NCBI GenBank assembly: GCA_024280015.1
Contig: JAJRQY010000078.1
Coordinates: 1 to 52,306, forward strand
Length of the DNA: 52,306 nt
Reading direction: 5' to 3'
Source: Actinomycetes bacterium
GTDB taxonomy: Bacteria > Actinomycetota > Acidimicrobiia > Acidimicrobiales > SZUA-35
In this document: one piece after another, positions 1,187 through 9,328 of the stretch
Layout of the letters: every line of letters begins with the position of its first letter
Numbering within the stretch: the first letter of the stretch is position 1
Program-made: the position numbers and the translations under genes
The notes under the pieces: model-generated
What the model was told of the DNA's origin: nothing
The model's input: the letters and a program-made list of their open reading frames with translations, nothing else
Databases searched by the model: none

Positions 1187-4100
1187 CTAGGTGTGGGCTG
1201 CGACCTTTTCACTGACGACCTTGGATGAGCCGCCGGGCTTCATGCTGACACCATAAAGTACATCGGCGGCTTCCATGGTCCGCTTCTGGTGACTGACGAT
1301 GATGAGCTGTGCTTCGCTCCGGAACTCTTGCACCAGGGCCAAGAATCGATGCAGGTTCATGTCGTCCAAGGCAGCCTCGACTTCATCCATCACATAGAAC
1401 GGCGACGGCCGGCTCTTGAACACTGCGAACAGGAAGCCAAGCGCCGTCAACGAACGTTCCCCACCAGAGAGCAGCGAAAGTTTCTTCACGTTCTTGCCTG
1501 ACGGCTTTGCTTCGATCTCGACACCAGTGTTCAGCAGATCGTTGGGGTCGGTGAGCTTGACCGCTCCGCGACCACCGGGGAACAAGGTTTGGAACAGGTC
1601 AACAAAGTTGGTGGCAACGTCGGCGTAGGCGGCGGAGAACACATTGACGATCTCGGCATCAATTTCTCGAATGAGACGCAAGAGTTCGCGCTTGGTGCTC
1701 TTCACATCCTGCAACTGTGCATCCAGGAACTCGTGGCGCTCCTTCAACTCTTCGAACTCTTCCAGCGCCAACGGGTTGATTGGACCCAGCAGTTTCAGCT
1801 CACGCTCCAACTCTCGCGTCCTGCTCTCTGGGCTGGACCCTTCGGGCACCTCGGGAAGTTCAGCTTCCATTGCCACTGATGGCTCGGTATCAAGATCTCG
1901 ACGGACAGCTTCGGTGAGGGTTTCGAGCCGAACACCGTTCTCGGCATCAGCCAGATCCAGACGATTGCACTTCTCGCGAACTTCGACCAGCTCTCGTTCT
2001 GCCGCTCGGCGTTCCTTGCGACGCTCCGAAAGACTTTCTGCTACTTCCTTCGAAGCCTGAGACTGTGCTTCTTGTTCGGTTCGCAGAAGTCCAAGCCAGG
2101 ATGTGAGCGTGATGCTCTTGTCGTCCAGTTGACCAGCAAGATCGTCGACAACACGCAGCGACTGCTCAAGGTCTTCACGGCGAACCTTGACCGCGGCGCG
2201 TTCGGTAACGAGCCGCTCCAGTCGTTTCTCGACCTCGCCCTGGCGAAGGATCAACGACTCGCGTCGGCTGTCCAAGGCAGCTGCGCGCACCTCGAGTTCG
2301 GTACGGGTATTGGCTACTCGGCGGGCGTGCTGTTCGAGCGCGGTGCGCGACTCATCCATTGACTTCGTTCGGTCGAAGTGTGCGGCTTCTGCTGCTTCCA
2401 GCCCTGGCAAGCTGAGCTGCAACTCGTCCAACTGCGCTCGGTCTTGGGCTTGACGGTCACCAATGGCCGCAAACTGTTCGTCCAGCCGTTCTCGGTCAGC
2501 GACCAGGTCATTGATTTGAGATGTGGTTCGTTCGACGGTAGCCAGCGCGCTTTCTAGCTTGGATTGGGCCTGGCGGAGCGACTCTTGGACCTCTCGCCTC
2601 TGGTTACGTCCCTCGTCCAGCTCACGGCGTGCCGCCAGCAGGATTGTTTGCGCCTGTTCGGCTACATGGGAGGTTTCGGCTGCCTTCGCAACCGCCTCTT
2701 CCAGGGCAGCACCGGTAGCGCCCGTTCCCGCCTGGCCAATACTCCATCCGCCAGGGCCGAACCGGTCGCCGTTTCGGGTGACGACGGTGGTGTCAGGGTG
2801 TTCGAGGGCCGTATCCAGGGCTCCTCGCCAGTCCGAATCCAGCGCTACGGCCCCGCCAAAGAGCGCATCAAGCAGACCCTCAACATCAGGACGAAGGGCT
2901 CGAACGTGGCTCCGCACTGGTTCGCCAACCGCAGGAGTTTCAACGTTCTGGCGAGAGGACCCGAGAGCAAGAACGGCTCCAGAAAGATCACGAGCGGATA
3001 GAGCTTCGAGCGCGGCCCGGCCATGCTCGACGTCATCAACGACGACGGCCAACATCGCTTGGCCAGCAGCAGCTTCAACCGCGGCATCCCAACCGTCATC
3101 GATGGCGACAAGATCCAACAGGGTGCCCAGAACTCCGGATGCGCCGACCAGAGCATCGGCACCAGCCGCACTCCTGGCGGCATCGAGGGCTTGGCTCAGG
3201 GCATCAGCCGTCGCCTTCCAGCGACTGGCTGCGCCGTCTGCAGTGCGTCGAGCTTCGATCGCTGACTCCACTGCTTCATCTTTGGCTATCCGGTCGGTGG
3301 CCGCGCCCTCAACCGACTTCGTCAACGTTGGGATTTCCGGCGTCAGCTTGTCGACGGATTCCTGAGCTTCGGCCCGGCTTTGCATGAGGCGATCGTGCCG
3401 AGCGCCAAGGGCATCCAACTGCTCGCTCAGCCTGCGACTCTCTTGCTCATCGCGTTGGGCCGCCGATTGCATCGCTGTGAGCTGGGTCCGAACCTCAGCT
3501 GCCTGAACTGGTGCTGGACCAATACCTTCACCCCAGGCTTCTTCGAAGGATTCCTGGTCGCTGCTCAGGCGACGCTCGACCACTTCGAGCTCGTTGAATT
3601 CCGGCTCAAGATCTTGGCGATCACTGACCGAAACAGTCAGCGATTCGACGATTCGCGCCGCTTCGGCTTCCAGGCTGGACACGACCCCGTCATCAACGGC
3701 TGATTGCAATTCACCTTGCAGTCGACGCTGACGCTCAGCCACCACATTCTTCTGTCCACGGATGCGTTCCTGCAGACTGAGGGCCCGCGACAAGACGTCG
3801 GCAACATCAGAACCACCAAGAGCTGCTAGTTCGGCTTCGGCCTCTAGTACGCCACGATCAAAGCTGGCCAACGACGTCTTTAGTTGGACCTCTCTCGCGT
3901 CAAAATCGATTCGTTGACGGCCAGATACCTCAAGCTTGGCCGTCAATGCCTTGAGTTCTCGACCAACCAGGTGAAGTTTTAGGGCCGCGAGTTCGGTAAC
4001 AAGGTCGCCGTGTCGACGGGCGGCATCGGCCTGCTTTTCTAGCGGACGAAGCTGGCGCCGGACTTCTCGGACCAGATCAGCGAGACGATTCAGGTTCTCG

Positions 4101-4654
4101 TCCGTTGCGCCGAGACGGCGTTCGGCCCGTTCCTTACGCTTGCGAAACTTGAGAACACCAGCCGCTTCTTCGATGATGGCCCGACGTTCTTCGGGCCGAG
4201 CATTAAGAACAGCATCAATCTGGCCCTGGGACACGATGATGTGCTGCTGGCGGCCAACACCGGAATCGCTCAACAGGTCCTGAATGTCGAGAAGCCGGCA
4301 GGAGACCCCGTTGATGGCGTATTCGGATTCGCCGGTACGAAACAGGGTTCGGGTGATCGTGACTTCGGTGAAGTCGATGGCCAGCATGCCATCACTATTG
4401 TCAATAGTGAGCGACACTTCGGCTCGGCCAAGGGCGGGCCGTTTCTGCGTTCCGGCAAAGATGATGTCGTCCATCTTCTGTGCTCGTACTGCCTTCGGGG
4501 CCTGGGCGCCGAGAACCCACGCCATGGCATCAACCACGTTGGACTTGCCGCTCCCGTTTGGACCGACAACTACGGTGACACCTGGTTCAAGATCCAGCGT
4601 TGCCGGGTCGGCGAACGACTTGAACCCCTTAATTGAGAGTGATTTCAGGTACAC
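1187..4654 (-). CDS. smc: chromosome segregation protein SMC
   Basis: A 1155-residue SMC ATPase, normal length for bacterial SMC, which organises and segregates chromosomes as a dimer with ScpA/ScpB. The N-terminus MYLKSLSIKGFKSF is canonical. Walker A is GPNGSGKS (residues 31-38). Two long coiled-coil arms flank a hinge around residues 500-640 (GVLGTLLDLVAIDDGWDAAV region). The C-terminal head carries the ABC signature LSGGERSLTALGFLFA and Walker B FYVMDEVEAALDD. It is the last gene of the minus-strand block, starting 9 bp after the Fpg-like gene. The ftsY often found downstream is not seen; IS remnants lie there instead. Confidence 0.97.
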   Translation of the reverse strand: MYLKSLSIKGFKSFADPATLDLEPGVTVVVGPNGSGKSNVVDAMAWVLGAQAPKAVRAQKMDDIIFAGTQKRPALGRAEVSLTIDNSDGMLAIDFTEVTITRTLFRTGESEYAINGVSCRLLDIQDLLSDSGVGRQQHIIVSQGQIDAVLNARPEERRAIIEEAAGVLKFRKRKERAERRLGATDENLNRLADLVREVRRQLRPLEKQADAARRHGDLVTELAALKLHLVGRELKALTAKLEVSGRQRIDFDAREVQLKTSLASFDRGVLEAEAELAALGGSDVADVLSRALSLQERIRGQKNVVAERQRRLQGELQSAVDDGVVSSLEAEAARIVESLTVSVSDRQDLEPEFNELEVVERRLSSDQESFEEAWGEGIGPAPVQAAEVRTQLTAMQSAAQRDEQESRRLSEQLDALGARHDRLMQSRAEAQESVDKLTPEIPTLTKSVEGAATDRIAKDEAVESAIEARRTADGAASRWKATADALSQALDAARSAAGADALVGASGVLGTLLDLVAIDDGWDAAVEAAAGQAMLAVVVDDVEHGRAALEALSARDLSGAVLALGSSRQNVETPAVGEPVRSHVRALRPDVEGLLDALFGGAVALDSDWRGALDTALEHPDTTVVTRNGDRFGPGGWSIGQAGTGATGAALEEAVAKAAETSHVAEQAQTILLAARRELDEGRNQRREVQESLRQAQSKLESALATVERTTSQINDLVADRERLDEQFAAIGDRQAQDRAQLDELQLSLPGLEAAEAAHFDRTKSMDESRTALEQHARRVANTRTELEVRAAALDSRRESLILRQGEVEKRLERLVTERAAVKVRREDLEQSLRVVDDLAGQLDDKSITLTSWLGLLRTEQEAQSQASKEVAESLSERRKERRAAERELVEVREKCNRLDLADAENGVRLETLTEAVRRDLDTEPSVAMEAELPEVPEGSSPESRTRELERELKLLGPINPLALEEFEELKERHEFLDAQLQDVKSTKRELLRLIREIDAEIVNVFSAAYADVATNFVDLFQTLFPGGRGAVKLTDPNDLLNTGVEIEAKPSGKNVKKLSLLSGGERSLTALGFLFAVFKSRPSPFYVMDEVEAALDDMNLHRFLALVQEFRSEAQLIIVSHQKRTMEAADVLYGVSMKPGGSSKVVSEKVAAHT

Positions 4655-4663
4655 GGCTGAATG

Positions 4664-5494
4664 CTAGACCTGGGTCGAGCAGAAGAAAACAGGCTTGCCT
4701 TTAAAGGTCGCCTTGGAGATCGGGGTCCGAGACCGAGGACTCAAATCACCCGCCTTGTCATAGACAGCCAGATGGTCGGCGAACTCTCCAGGAGTTCCAC
4801 TCAGGTCCACGAACGGCCGCTTCTCCAGTGAAGTGCCCCGATACTTGATGGCGTCATGCAAGATGCCAACGACCGACCGGTACAAGCGACGAACCTCTTG
4901 GGTCGAAAGCTGGTTGGACTTGCGGTCATACCGCAAACCAGCGTCGAACAAGATCTCGTCGCTATAGATGGGGCCGATTCCCACAAATGAGGTCGGATCC
5001 ATGAGGAGAGCCTTGAGTGGCTCTGTCCGACGAAGAACAAAGCGGCCAAAGTCAATCCAGGACATTGGCTGACTAAGCAAGTCAAGCGGGTGATCTTCGG
5101 CTGCTTCAAGACCGGCAACGAACTCTTCTGAGGTCACCAGAATAACTGCGGTAGCGTCGGCGATCCGAAGATCGCCACCCTGGGTAAAGGTGATGGTCAC
5201 ATCGATGTCATTGGCCATGCTGACGCGGCTGGCAACCCGCTCCATCCGGCCGGCTCCGCCAAGGCGGATACCGAGGACCATCTCATTGTCCATGTGGAAG
5301 ACAATCATGGTCCCTTCACGCTCAACAACGGAGACTTTTGCTCCAAGCAAGGGCTCGGCGAAGGACTTCTTGGTGCGATACGCCTCCATTGGCTTCAAGG
5401 TCTTGGCGTCAACTGCCTTGACCTTGCGGCCAACAACATCTCGCTCAAGATCACGTCGCAGGGTTTCAATCTCTGGTAGCTCTAAATCGGCCAT
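4664..5494 (-). CDS. Fpg/Nei-family protein lacking catalytic and zinc-finger residues
   Basis: A 276-residue homologue of formamidopyrimidine-DNA glycosylase sitting exactly where fpg/mutM belongs, between rnc and smc. The overall fold is recognisable: LELPEIETLRRDLE start, LGGAGRM, GIGPIYSDEILFDAGL helix-two-turn-helix, and TPISK...FFCSTQ tail. In active Fpg, Met is followed by catalytic Pro2-Glu3. Here the protein begins MADLELPE, with Leu4 at the Pro position and a three-residue extension. The RGK lysine is EGT (Thr62), the GIGNIY asparagine is Pro175, and the zinc-finger CPRC is SPRS (252-255). FCPxC is FCSTQ and the zinc-finger arginine is Lys. Starts at 5503 (overlapping the rnc stop) or 5506 would lengthen the N-terminus but not restore Pro2. 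A non-catalytic DNA-binding or repurposed role is inferred. Confidence 0.88.
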   Translation of the reverse strand: MADLELPEIETLRRDLERDVVGRKVKAVDAKTLKPMEAYRTKKSFAEPLLGAKVSVVEREGTMIVFHMDNEMVLGIRLGGAGRMERVASRVSMANDIDVTITFTQGGDLRIADATAVILVTSEEFVAGLEAAEDHPLDLLSQPMSWIDFGRFVLRRTEPLKALLMDPTSFVGIGPIYSDEILFDAGLRYDRKSNQLSTQEVRRLYRSVVGILHDAIKYRGTSLEKRPFVDLSGTPGEFADHLAVYDKAGDLSPRSRTPISKATFKGKPVFFCSTQV

Positions 5495-5502
5495 GGCGCC
5501 CA

Positions 5503-6195
5503 TCACTCTTCCACTGCATTGGCGAGAACGATCCAGGCCGACCGGGCGGCCGCCTGCTCTGCTCTCTTCTTTGATGTTCCTTTTCCTTCACCCATTGCCT
5601 CACCTTTGACTACGGCCACCGCTTTGAAGCGGCGATCGTGATCGGGGCCGCTGCCCTCGATCTGGTAGGCGGGTGATCCGAGCCCAAGCTCGGCGGTTAA
5701 TTCTTGAAGACGCGTTTTGTAGTCGTCTCGTCCGGGGCGCTCAGCACCAACGGTGATGTCTTCCAGCAAGAGTGCGAGCACCACGTCCTGGGTCGATTCC
5801 CAACCAGAGTCCAGGTAGATGGCGCCAAGGACCGCTTCGAGCGAGTCGGCCAGAATCGATTCCTTGTCACGACCACCAGACTGATCTTCGCCCTTGCCGA
5901 GCAGCAGGATTGAGCCGAGGTCGAGTCGTGCCGCTACTTCAGCCAAGGTCGCAGTGTTTACAACCGAGGCTCGCAACTTGGCCAGCTCGCCTTCTGAGAG
6001 GTCTGGATAGGTGGCATGGATGTGGTCGGTGACAACCAACCCAAGTACGGCATCACCCAAAAATTCCAAACGTTCGTTTGACGTGACATTCTCGTGCTCG
6101 GAGCAATAGCTCCGATGAGTCGATGCCAGCCGGAGCCGGGCAGGATCAATGAACGTGTAGCCAAGACGGCGCGAAAACGCGTCCGTCTCAGGCAT
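5503..6195 (-). CDS. rnc: ribonuclease III
   Basis: A 230-residue endoribonuclease that cleaves double-stranded RNA in rRNA precursor processing and mRNA turnover. The family signature NERLEFLGDAVLG (residues 40-52) carries the catalytic Glu and Asp. The second acidic site DSLEAVLGAIYLDSG follows, and the C-terminal double-stranded RNA-binding domain includes DYKTRLQELTAELG and GKGTSKKRAEQAAA. Length and domain order are standard. The stop codon touches the next gene's start region, so rnc and the Fpg-like gene are probably translationally coupled. acpP lies 50 bp upstream. Confidence 0.96.
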   Translation of the reverse strand: MPETDAFSRRLGYTFIDPARLRLASTHRSYCSEHENVTSNERLEFLGDAVLGLVVTDHIHATYPDLSEGELAKLRASVVNTATLAEVAARLDLGSILLLGKGEDQSGGRDKESILADSLEAVLGAIYLDSGWESTQDVVLALLLEDITVGAERPGRDDYKTRLQELTAELGLGSPAYQIEGSGPDHDRRFKAVAVVKGEAMGEGKGTSKKRAEQAAARSAWIVLANAVEE

Positions 6196-8001: not shown

Positions 8002-8667
8002 ATGACTGAGGGAACCCCACAACCGCCACAACAACCAGGCCAATCGGCCCAGCCCCCTGGCGGCTACCCGCCCCCACAACCGCCTCCGACACAGGCCGCA
8101 CCACCGGCCGGGGGATACCCGTCACCACAGACACCACCACCCCAACCGCCAGCCACTGGCTACCCCCAGCAGGGCTATCAACAGCCAGGCCAGGCCACGC
8201 AATACCCGCAGCAGAGCTATCCCCAACCGCAGCAGTACCCCCAGCAGGCTCAGCCTCACCAACCGCCAAAGAAAAGCAATGTCAAGAAGATCTTGCTCAT
8301 CCTCGGGCTGGTCATTGGACTACCACTGATCGGTATCGGTGCCTGCACCTTCTTCTTGCTTGGCGCAGTCACGGGACCTGTTGATGAGTCCAACGCCATG
8401 CTCGCCTTATTGGATGAGGGCAAGTACCAGGAGGCCTACGACTCGTTTGATCCAACCTGCACCGGCGACTTTGGGGTCGAAGACATTCGGGCGATCTGGG
8501 CCGGTGTTGAGATCGACGGATACAACCTAAACGACGTCAGCGTACAAAATTCGAAGGCTGACGTCAGCGGCACTGTCTCCGTTAACGGAGGGATCTCCAA
8601 CCCCATCAGTTTCGAACTCAACAAGCGTGACGGCGATTGGAAGGTCTGCGGCTTTACCGTCGAATAG
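8002..8667 (+). CDS. proline/glutamine-rich single-TM protein (paralogue 1)
   Basis: A 221-residue protein with three parts. Residues 1-92 are low complexity, rich in Pro, Gln, Gly and Tyr with repeated YPQQ/GYP blocks. Residues about 95-122 form one transmembrane helix, KKILLILGLVIGLPLIGIGAC. The outside domain of about 100 residues contains a DEGKYQEAYDSFDPTC segment and ends with GDWKVCGFTVE. This is the layout of DUF4878-like membrane-anchored proteins. The helix ends in IGAC, which resembles a lipobox, but the long cytosolic N-terminus argues against lipidation. A paralogue follows 97 bp downstream. Function unknown. It lies on the opposite strand inside an otherwise conserved minus-strand block. 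Confidence 0.75.
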   Translation: MTEGTPQPPQQPGQSAQPPGGYPPPQPPPTQAAPPAGGYPSPQTPPPQPPATGYPQQGYQQPGQATQYPQQSYPQPQQYPQQAQPHQPPKKSNVKKILLILGLVIGLPLIGIGACTFFLLGAVTGPVDESNAMLALLDEGKYQEAYDSFDPTCTGDFGVEDIRAIWAGVEIDGYNLNDVSVQNSKADVSGTVSVNGGISNPISFELNKRDGDWKVCGFTVE

Positions 8668-8764
8668 TTCATGGCACCGTCAGCACTTGCTGACCGGCAA
8701 GAACTAGGTCACCGCCTGCCCTACTGTGGGTCGACACCCAAAGGACCACCACGAAGGTAGAACC

Positions 8765-9328
8765 GTGCCCGACAGCAGCCAGCCAAGAGCAGTTTGGACT
8801 CCCCCACCCGGTGCACCGATCGACAACCAGACTTTTGAGCCCTATACACCCACTCCCGGTCTAGCCCCAGCCTCGAGTGGCCAGTGGGTTGCTCCGCCAG
8901 CCCCGCCCAAGTCCAACAAGTGGAAGAAGACCCTGCTGATCGTCGGGCTAGTCGTCGGCTTGCCGCTCATTGGGATTGGTGCCTGTAGCTACTGGGCCTA
9001 TGACTTGTTCACTGGGCCGACCAACGAAGCAAATCGGGTCGTCCAGCTGGTACAGGACCAGCAATACGATGAAGCGCTGAGTTCCGTCGACCCATCCTGT
9101 TCCGGTGGAATTGATGAGTTCGTTGAACAGGCCAAAACCGATCACTTCGCCGAGTTTTTCTTCATAACCTTTGAGCTTGCCACAGGAGGTGTTGCTGAAT
9201 CATCGGTCCAGGGAAGCATCTTCTTTGAGCAACAAGGCGAGGTTGAGACTCGGATCGAACTCAAGCCCGATGGGGGCGACTGGAGAGTTTGCCGAATTCG
9301 CTTGGGCGTCACTGGTTTCCAGGACTGA
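8765..9328 (+). CDS. proline-rich single-TM protein (paralogue 2)
   Basis: A 187-residue relative of the gene at 8002. The GTG at 8765 (VPDSSQPRAVW) is preferred because GAAGGTAG lies just upstream; a GTG at 8726 is possible. The protein has a shorter Pro-rich cytosolic part, then a basic patch and helix SNKWKKTLLIVGLVVGLPLIGIGACSYWAYDLF. That helix is nearly identical to paralogue 1. The external domain has QDQQYDEALSSVDPSC (compare the AYDSFDPTC region of paralogue 1) and ends GGDWRVCRIRLG. The pair looks like a tandem duplication followed by divergence of the outer domain. Function unknown. Confidence 0.75.
   Translation: MPDSSQPRAVWTPPPGAPIDNQTFEPYTPTPGLAPASSGQWVAPPAPPKSNKWKKTLLIVGLVVGLPLIGIGACSYWAYDLFTGPTNEANRVVQLVQDQQYDEALSSVDPSCSGGIDEFVEQAKTDHFAEFFFITFELATGGVAESSVQGSIFFEQQGEVETRIELKPDGGDWRVCRIRLGVTGFQD

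Follow-up and report, generated by a model that had tools for sequence, protein, structure and literature searches.

Repair glycosylases are highly conserved enzymes, and a full-length protein that has the fold of one of them, Fpg/MutM, sits between rnc and smc and lacks most of the catalytic, lesion-reading and zinc residues raises the question of what it has become. Such a protein is encoded in the stretch of 52,306 nucleotides from an Actinomycetes bacterium analyzed here, which in its entirety we call the window. The gene, its features and its neighbors are arranged as follows:

4664 to 5494, minus strand: gene of the Fpg/MutM fold, 276 amino acids, missing the majority of the residues for catalysis, lesion reading and zinc binding
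5450 to 5494, minus strand: N-terminus and start of the first helix, residues 1-15, with Glu5 and Glu8 present as the equivalents of Glu3 and Glu6
5303 to 5320, minus strand: region of the Lys57 motif, residues 59-64, REGTMI in place of RxGKYL
5132 to 5173, minus strand: stretch where the intercalation loop (Arg109/Phe111) used to lie, residues 108-121, predicted to form a single continuous strand
4961 to 4981, minus strand: H2TH motif GIGPIYS, residues 172-178, with Pro at the place of Asn169
4667 to 4744, minus strand: zincless finger, residues 251-276 (LSPRSR...FFCSTQV), in which one of four zinc cysteines remains
5503 to 6195, minus strand: rnc (RNase III), immediately upstream of the fpg gene
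1187 to 4654, minus strand: smc, immediately downstream of the fpg gene

On the minus strand, the gene starts with an ATG at 5494, ends with a stop codon at 4664-4666 and comprises 276 codons. The end of rnc lies 8 bases ahead of it and the start of smc 9 bases behind, and we infer that the three genes are transcribed jointly. In-frame GTG and ATG codons are found 12 and 9 bases upstream of the ATG. Judged by inferred starts, most orthologs begin at the same M-x-x-LELPE place, with 0 to 3 extra residues at the N-terminus (MTIALELPE in L171). An alternative start yielding MP-E, which a preceding sequence-only reading had named as a finding that would speak against a lost N-terminal proline, was looked for in the window and is impossible, as the codon preceding Glu5 is Leu.

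That reading had also described an intact Fpg fold at this locus, and both Pfam domains indeed score above threshold, Fapy_DNA_glyco with 59.5 bits against a cut-off of 25.5 and H2TH with 56.3 against 34.7. The protein nevertheless fails the NCBI equivalogs for Fpg, with scores of 146.2 against 203.3 for TIGR00577 and 153.4 against 212 for NF002211. An AlphaFold2 model based on 54 sequences reached a pLDDT of 93.4 and a pTM of 0.89, superseding an earlier one from 21 sequences (pLDDT 84.7). It superimposes on MutM (1R2Y) with a Z score of 31.8 and 2.4 A over 267 residues (Foldseek TM 0.84), the first aligned residue being Leu4, onto chain residue 2. Together, the domain scores and the predicted structure place the protein in the Fpg/Nei fold superfamily. 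In this model of the protein alone, segments 72-87 and 108-121, within which the reading loops used to lie, come out as unbroken strands, and the finger hairpin is formed by strands 260-264 and 267-271 without the zinc cysteines. Note that residues 108-121 count three fewer than in the genus-mate L007. A relationship to NFACT_N (RqcH) was considered and rejected, as the Pfam match over H2TH reached only 14.7 against 31 bits; no NFACT chain is among the best 50 structural matches listed, which carries no weight either way.

With E. coli MutM as the ruler for residue numbering, the window protein is devoid of Pro2, Lys57, His71, Met74, Arg109, Phe111, Asn169, Arg259 and all but one of the four zinc cysteines. 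The place of Pro2, the N-terminal nucleophile, is taken by a leucine preceded by two additional residues, that of Lys57, a beta-strand lysine, by a threonine, and the zinc motifs read SPRS for CPRC and FCST-Q for FCxxC. All five changes named in the sequence-only reading (Leu for Pro2, Thr for Lys57, Pro for the Asn of GIGN, SPRS and FCST-Q) are present on the alignment, while the losses at His71, Met74, Arg109, Phe111 and Arg259 had not been listed. Its claim that all catalytic and zinc residues are lost holds for most of them, but 'all' is too strong, because Glu3, Glu6, Lys155 and one cysteine, the third of the zinc site, persist. In Fpg, His71, Asn169 and Arg259 are phosphate contacts. Met74, Arg109 and Phe111 are inserted by the enzyme to kink the DNA and evert the base (PMC5422863).

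A total of 61 genomes were searched for the ortholog. In 32 of the 37 genomes from the window's own family (f1) it was found, in 32 of 32 cases without an internal stop codon. Genuine gene loss is not indicated for the remaining five (G022, G024, G031, G033 and G036), which probably represent assembly gaps, since these assemblies contain no intact rnc-smc stretch either: four have neither an RNase III match nor a full smc match, while in the fifth the rnc match is partial and smc sits on a different contig. Within the stretches examined, 31 of 32 family loci have rnc upstream (not found for L036) and 28 of 32 have smc downstream (not found for L021, L024, L031 and L035), with a wrong gene order or strand in none of the 32; the records L096 and L099, with longer flanks, show both genes. 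At the other loci without Lys57, rnc is found upstream in 19 of 20 and smc downstream in 20 of 20. The conservation beside rnc and smc proposed from the window alone is thus seen across related loci, in the same order and on the same strand. The named records among the closest matches come from metagenome assemblies, and most bear the title Acidimicrobiales, Acidimicrobiia or Actinomycetes/Actinomycetota; in further families of this order and class, the Fpg at the rnc locus is canonical. Three records titled Bifidobacterium breve (L116, L121 and L122) have rnc-fpg-smc motif strings that match Acidimicrobiia records, L122 groups with L105 and L107 on the tree, and all three are probably mislabelled metagenome bins.

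The losses are a property of the family and not of one assembly. Lys57, His71, Met74, Arg109, Phe111 and Asn169 are kept in none of the 32 family orthologs and Arg259 in three, whereas Glu3 and Glu6 are present in all 32 and Lys155 in 29. At the place of Asn169 we found Asp in 17, Glu in 6, Pro in 5, Ala in 3 and Leu in 1. Cys244 is replaced by Ser, Cys247 by Ser (one Asn), Cys267 is deleted and Cys264 stays, leaving one of the four cysteines of the finger in 32 of 32. (Duplicates L002, L004 and L005 were left out, and Pro2 was not scored in L044, which has no N-terminus.) Sequencing error, the second doubt attached to the initial reading, is excluded by these core losses being common to independent genomes.

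In the larger clade to which the family belongs, Lys57 is missing from 52 of 52 sequences read, and Arg109, Phe111 and Met74 likewise from all 52. Survivals are few: the GIGN asparagine in L102 and L169, His71 in L188 and Arg259 in 5 of the 20 non-family sequences, and Glu3 is absent in 3 of 19 clade sequences outside the window's family. The history was traced on a quick tree of 61 orthologs (18 of the 32 family rows) with trait columns masked and without bootstrap, whose support values the program grades lower. On it all proteins without Lys57 form one clade (SH-aLRT 96) of eleven family codes (f1, f3, f13, f17, f19, f23, f24, f29, f30, f32 and f33), and the trees place the window gene as an ortholog of the canonical rnc-locus Fpgs. 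Lys57 and Arg109 show a single change apiece, which falls at the base of this clade in Acidimicrobiia; His71, Met74 and Phe111 change twice, Asn169 and the zinc count three times and Arg259 six times. Pro2 changes four times, or three when L129, which carries Val or Met ahead of Glu3, is left out; in L027 (MPPALELPE), the apparent proline at position 2 is an alignment effect and was not scored as Pro2. One of the three zinc-count changes falls outside the clade, in L177 (G164, same class), where catalytic and reading residues are present with a single zinc cysteine (CPRT...YSVS), a separate loss of the zinc site in a presumably active enzyme. L056 (G047), a canonical fpg of the rnc locus that is split over two frames by a sequencing error or a real break, in an assembly of two contigs, was excluded from the trees.

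Some lineages without Lys57 still have Pro2 (in f3, f19 and f24) or all four cysteines (in f3, f23, f32 and f33), and by parsimony we infer from this that the catalytic lysine and the base readers went first and the proline and zinc site later, piecemeal. This order bears on the notion that the protein reads lesions, binding damaged DNA without cutting in order to mark or shield it. The fold intact in the model and the conserved H2TH and 214-236 loop would suit such a role, but the very residues that read and extrude a lesion were lost, and by parsimony ahead of the catalytic proline, so that we regard it as highly improbable. Two deviations from the canonical pattern are found outside the clade. 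L039 (G041) has a partly similar set of losses, keeping Lys57, Pro2 and the zinc site while Asn169, Met74, Phe111 and Arg259 are gone, and it is the sole Fpg over the cut-off in its genome among the matches listed, which counts against the reading favored below. L134, L135, L136 and L139, from records titled Caldithrix, Spirochaetales, Leptospiraceae and KSB1, read RxGPF for RxGKY, a change of Lys57 to Pro, and keep the GN asparagine and four cysteines, with Pro2 present where the N-terminus is readable.

Is the gene merely on its way out? The sequence-only reading had taken the open frame as a sign of selection. A frame of 276 codons is by itself weak evidence, but purifying selection is supported by the orthologs and by a codon model, which yielded an omega of 0.045 (15 sequences, 279 codons). 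The log-likelihood of -9243.2 compares with -10543.2 when omega was fixed at 1 and kappa at 2, which is not a clean test because both were fixed together; dS is saturated. Counting dN/dS in the 14 pairs with the lowest pS gave 0.23 to 0.67, values that speak against the reading favored below but carry little weight at this saturation. Mean identity, taken across 105 pairs from 15 family genomes, is 58% for the window protein, 64% for a second Fpg of these genomes and 65% for the aligned part of RNase III. A decaying gene, retained merely for its place in the operon, might show the faster change of the beta-domain and the piecemeal loss of Pro2 and cysteines that we observe. Against this stand the 32 stop-free family orthologs, the low omega, an identity close to that of RNase III and the lack of an intact rnc-smc stretch in each family genome without a match, and decay is largely refuted, to the point that we give it hardly any credence.

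Constraint is distributed unevenly over the protein. Comparing the window-type proteins, canonical rnc-locus Fpgs (22 rows) and second Fpgs, in this order, identity is 0.45, 0.63 and 0.58 in the beta N-domain, 0.69, 0.66 and 0.66 in H2TH, 0.70, 0.64 and 0.68 in the finger, 0.65, 0.66 and 0.66 in the 214-236 loop and 0.78, 0.85 and 0.79 in the first helix, a pattern and not a rate because the three sets span different breadths. As judged by these alignments, constraint has dropped mainly in the catalytic beta-domain, not in H2TH or the finger; the lower conservation of the first helix compared with canonical rnc-locus Fpgs counts against the reading favored below.

The sequence-only reading had further suggested a check for a second, canonical fpg, and one is present. 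The window genome contains four H2TH genes, of which one, at C164 (L062), has every key residue and passes the cut-offs of both TIGR00577 and NF002211. In 22 of 22 second Fpgs that were read, all from genomes or families of the clade without Lys57, 15 of 15 key residues are in place, and among the rows used they form one group with an SH-aLRT of 100. Among the matches listed, a second Fpg over the TIGR00577 cut-off and away from the rnc locus occurs in 44 of 50 genomes whose rnc-locus protein has no Lys57, and in none of 26 sampled genomes where it has (Fisher 6e-15). As the genomes are not independent and the pattern possibly reflects a single evolutionary event with few exceptions, the p value is not that of 76 independent trials. 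Note that part of the counted genomes were drawn from better profile matches, that G082 and G182 (one Fpg match each) were omitted with the locus not read, that the records L102 and L103 were not counted, and that a second Fpg split into pieces could escape the count. The replacement is not absolute, because among the matches listed for six of the 50 genomes no second Fpg exceeds the cut-off: four drafts (G004, G021, G023 and G029; 95, 55, 88 and 76% complete) and two small genomes of one genus (G198 and G221; 95 and 96% complete), in which the protein without Lys57 was kept though no canonical Fpg was found. A MutY-like match considered as GO partner scored 197.8 bits, under its family cut-off of 286.5, and was not used.

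We take Lys51 of mycobacterial Nei2 to be the equivalent of Fpg Lys57. According to PMC11323726, this lysine is needed for both lyase and glycosylase activity of Nei2 and the proline for lyase only, the P2A variant retaining 5-hydroxyuracil glycosylase activity. From the loss of Lys57, neither AP-lyase nor glycosylase activity is predicted by the known mechanism, and the window protein, judged by its sequence, is probably not an active enzyme. The possibility of different chemistry, already raised in the initial reading, would have Glu3 activate water without proline and lysine and act on another base. The retention of Glu3, Glu6 and, in most family members, Lys155, the 214-236 loop that is as conserved as in active Fpgs and the glycosylase activity of Nei2 P2A can be cited in its favor. 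However, it is the lysine essential for both Nei2 activities and the triad of Arg109, Phe111 and Met74 that the whole clade is missing, the beta-domain shows the largest drop in constraint, and outside the family Glu3 itself is gone in places. Moreover, no N-terminal amine is held in place, because the inferred N-terminus carries a variable number of extra residues. Beyond the kept Glu3 and Glu6 there is no positive support for different chemistry, and we consider it improbable.

The explanation that we favor, and think fairly probable, is a pseudo-glycosylase that the second Fpg set free and that was retained to bind nucleic acid without cutting it. The starting point would be an ordinary Acidimicrobiia rnc-locus fpg, inherited vertically. 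In the ancestor of the clade a second canonical Fpg would have been present and taken over 8-oxoguanine repair. After that, the rnc-locus copy would have lost its catalytic lysine along with the residues for reading and flipping damaged bases; the proline at the N-terminus and the zinc site would have gone later, piecemeal. Today the protein most likely still contacts nucleic acid via H2TH and the zincless finger but would neither kink DNA nor flip bases nor cut, and it would serve as a binding or structural protein produced alongside RNase III and SMC. A non-cutting binder is favored because the half of the protein comprising H2TH and finger remains, and remains constrained; nucleic-acid binding by the window protein and a working link with rnc or smc are conjecture.

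The main rival is a scaffold for protein contacts, in which the Fpg fold offers a surface to a partner such as RNase III, SMC or the second Fpg and binds no nucleic acid. The mean net charge of the window-type protein is -3.0 against +6.6 in canonical orthologs (24 rows), while the controls hardly move, RNase III with -10.7 against -9.4 (a shift of 1.4) and the SMC N-terminus with -4.7 against -3.2 (1.5), and this fall of about 10 units speaks against tight, Fpg-like DNA binding. The reading triad and other residues on the DNA side are gone, and, as compared with a canonical set of 17 rows, new residues such as N70, R226-P227-F228, K265, V269 and T274 occur in 94% or more of the family. On the other hand, H2TH and the finger are constrained as in active Fpgs, and 28 conserved basic positions compare with 31 in the canonical proteins (24 rows), with 22 shared. 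We consider a pure scaffold unlikely. A more far-reaching version of our favored reading, which we advance tentatively and would not call probable, is that of a clade-wide dead Fpg family, fixed between rnc and smc, that has taken up a new task other than repair, in RNA processing or in the organization of the chromosome. Next to NFACT, this would be the second time that the Fpg fold was independently reused outside base excision. If true, this reading would place a new player at a core locus.

How does this protein compare with known relatives? In NFACT_N (RqcH/NEMF), an Fpg-related fold has been turned to tRNA and ribosome work without glycosylase activity. The window protein resembles it in the reuse of an Fpg-like fold and the weak Pfam match over H2TH, but lies below the NFACT_N cut-off and is orthologous to Fpg. 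Zincless-finger Fpg/Nei enzymes are active glycosylases that keep the catalytic proline and lysine. A finger hairpin without zinc cysteines is thus a feature in common, whereas the window protein has lost proline and lysine as well. Such enzymes comprise plant and fungal members, NEIL1 and a Mimivirus protein (PMC3188539). PMC2734929 describes two relatives from M. tuberculosis, the rnc-locus Fpg/MutM Rv2924c, adjoining rnc, and Rv0944 (Fpg2), a truncated Fpg relative without the catalytic N-terminus. With Fpg/MutM the window protein shares fold, length, domain order, locus, Glu3, Glu6 and the glycines and tyrosine of H2TH; it differs in the eight lost residues outside the zinc site, in the single remaining zinc cysteine and in its lower net charge. 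With Rv0944 it shares the lack of a catalytic N-terminus in an actinobacterial Fpg relative, but it is full length, with point losses common to a whole clade.

Degenerate Fpg relatives (Rv0944) and zincless fingers are already known. In the open-access literature, with subscription papers mostly outside the scope, our searches turned up no description of Fpg orthologs from Acidimicrobiia that are inactive. As far as we have seen, a pseudo-Fpg that is full length, tied to its locus and shared by a whole clade, and whose losses follow a readable order, is a new form of degenerate Fpg. That order, together with a canonical second copy in most genomes, makes for a natural experiment in which a repair enzyme turns into something else. 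On the practical side, annotation pipelines may label the window gene mutM, and scoring it as 8-oxoguanine repair would probably mislead.

Elsewhere in the window, two adjacent genes on the plus strand (8002-8667 and 8726-9328) encode small proline-rich proteins that resemble each other in a membrane stretch and a cysteine (GLPLIGIGAC) and apparently arose by tandem duplication.
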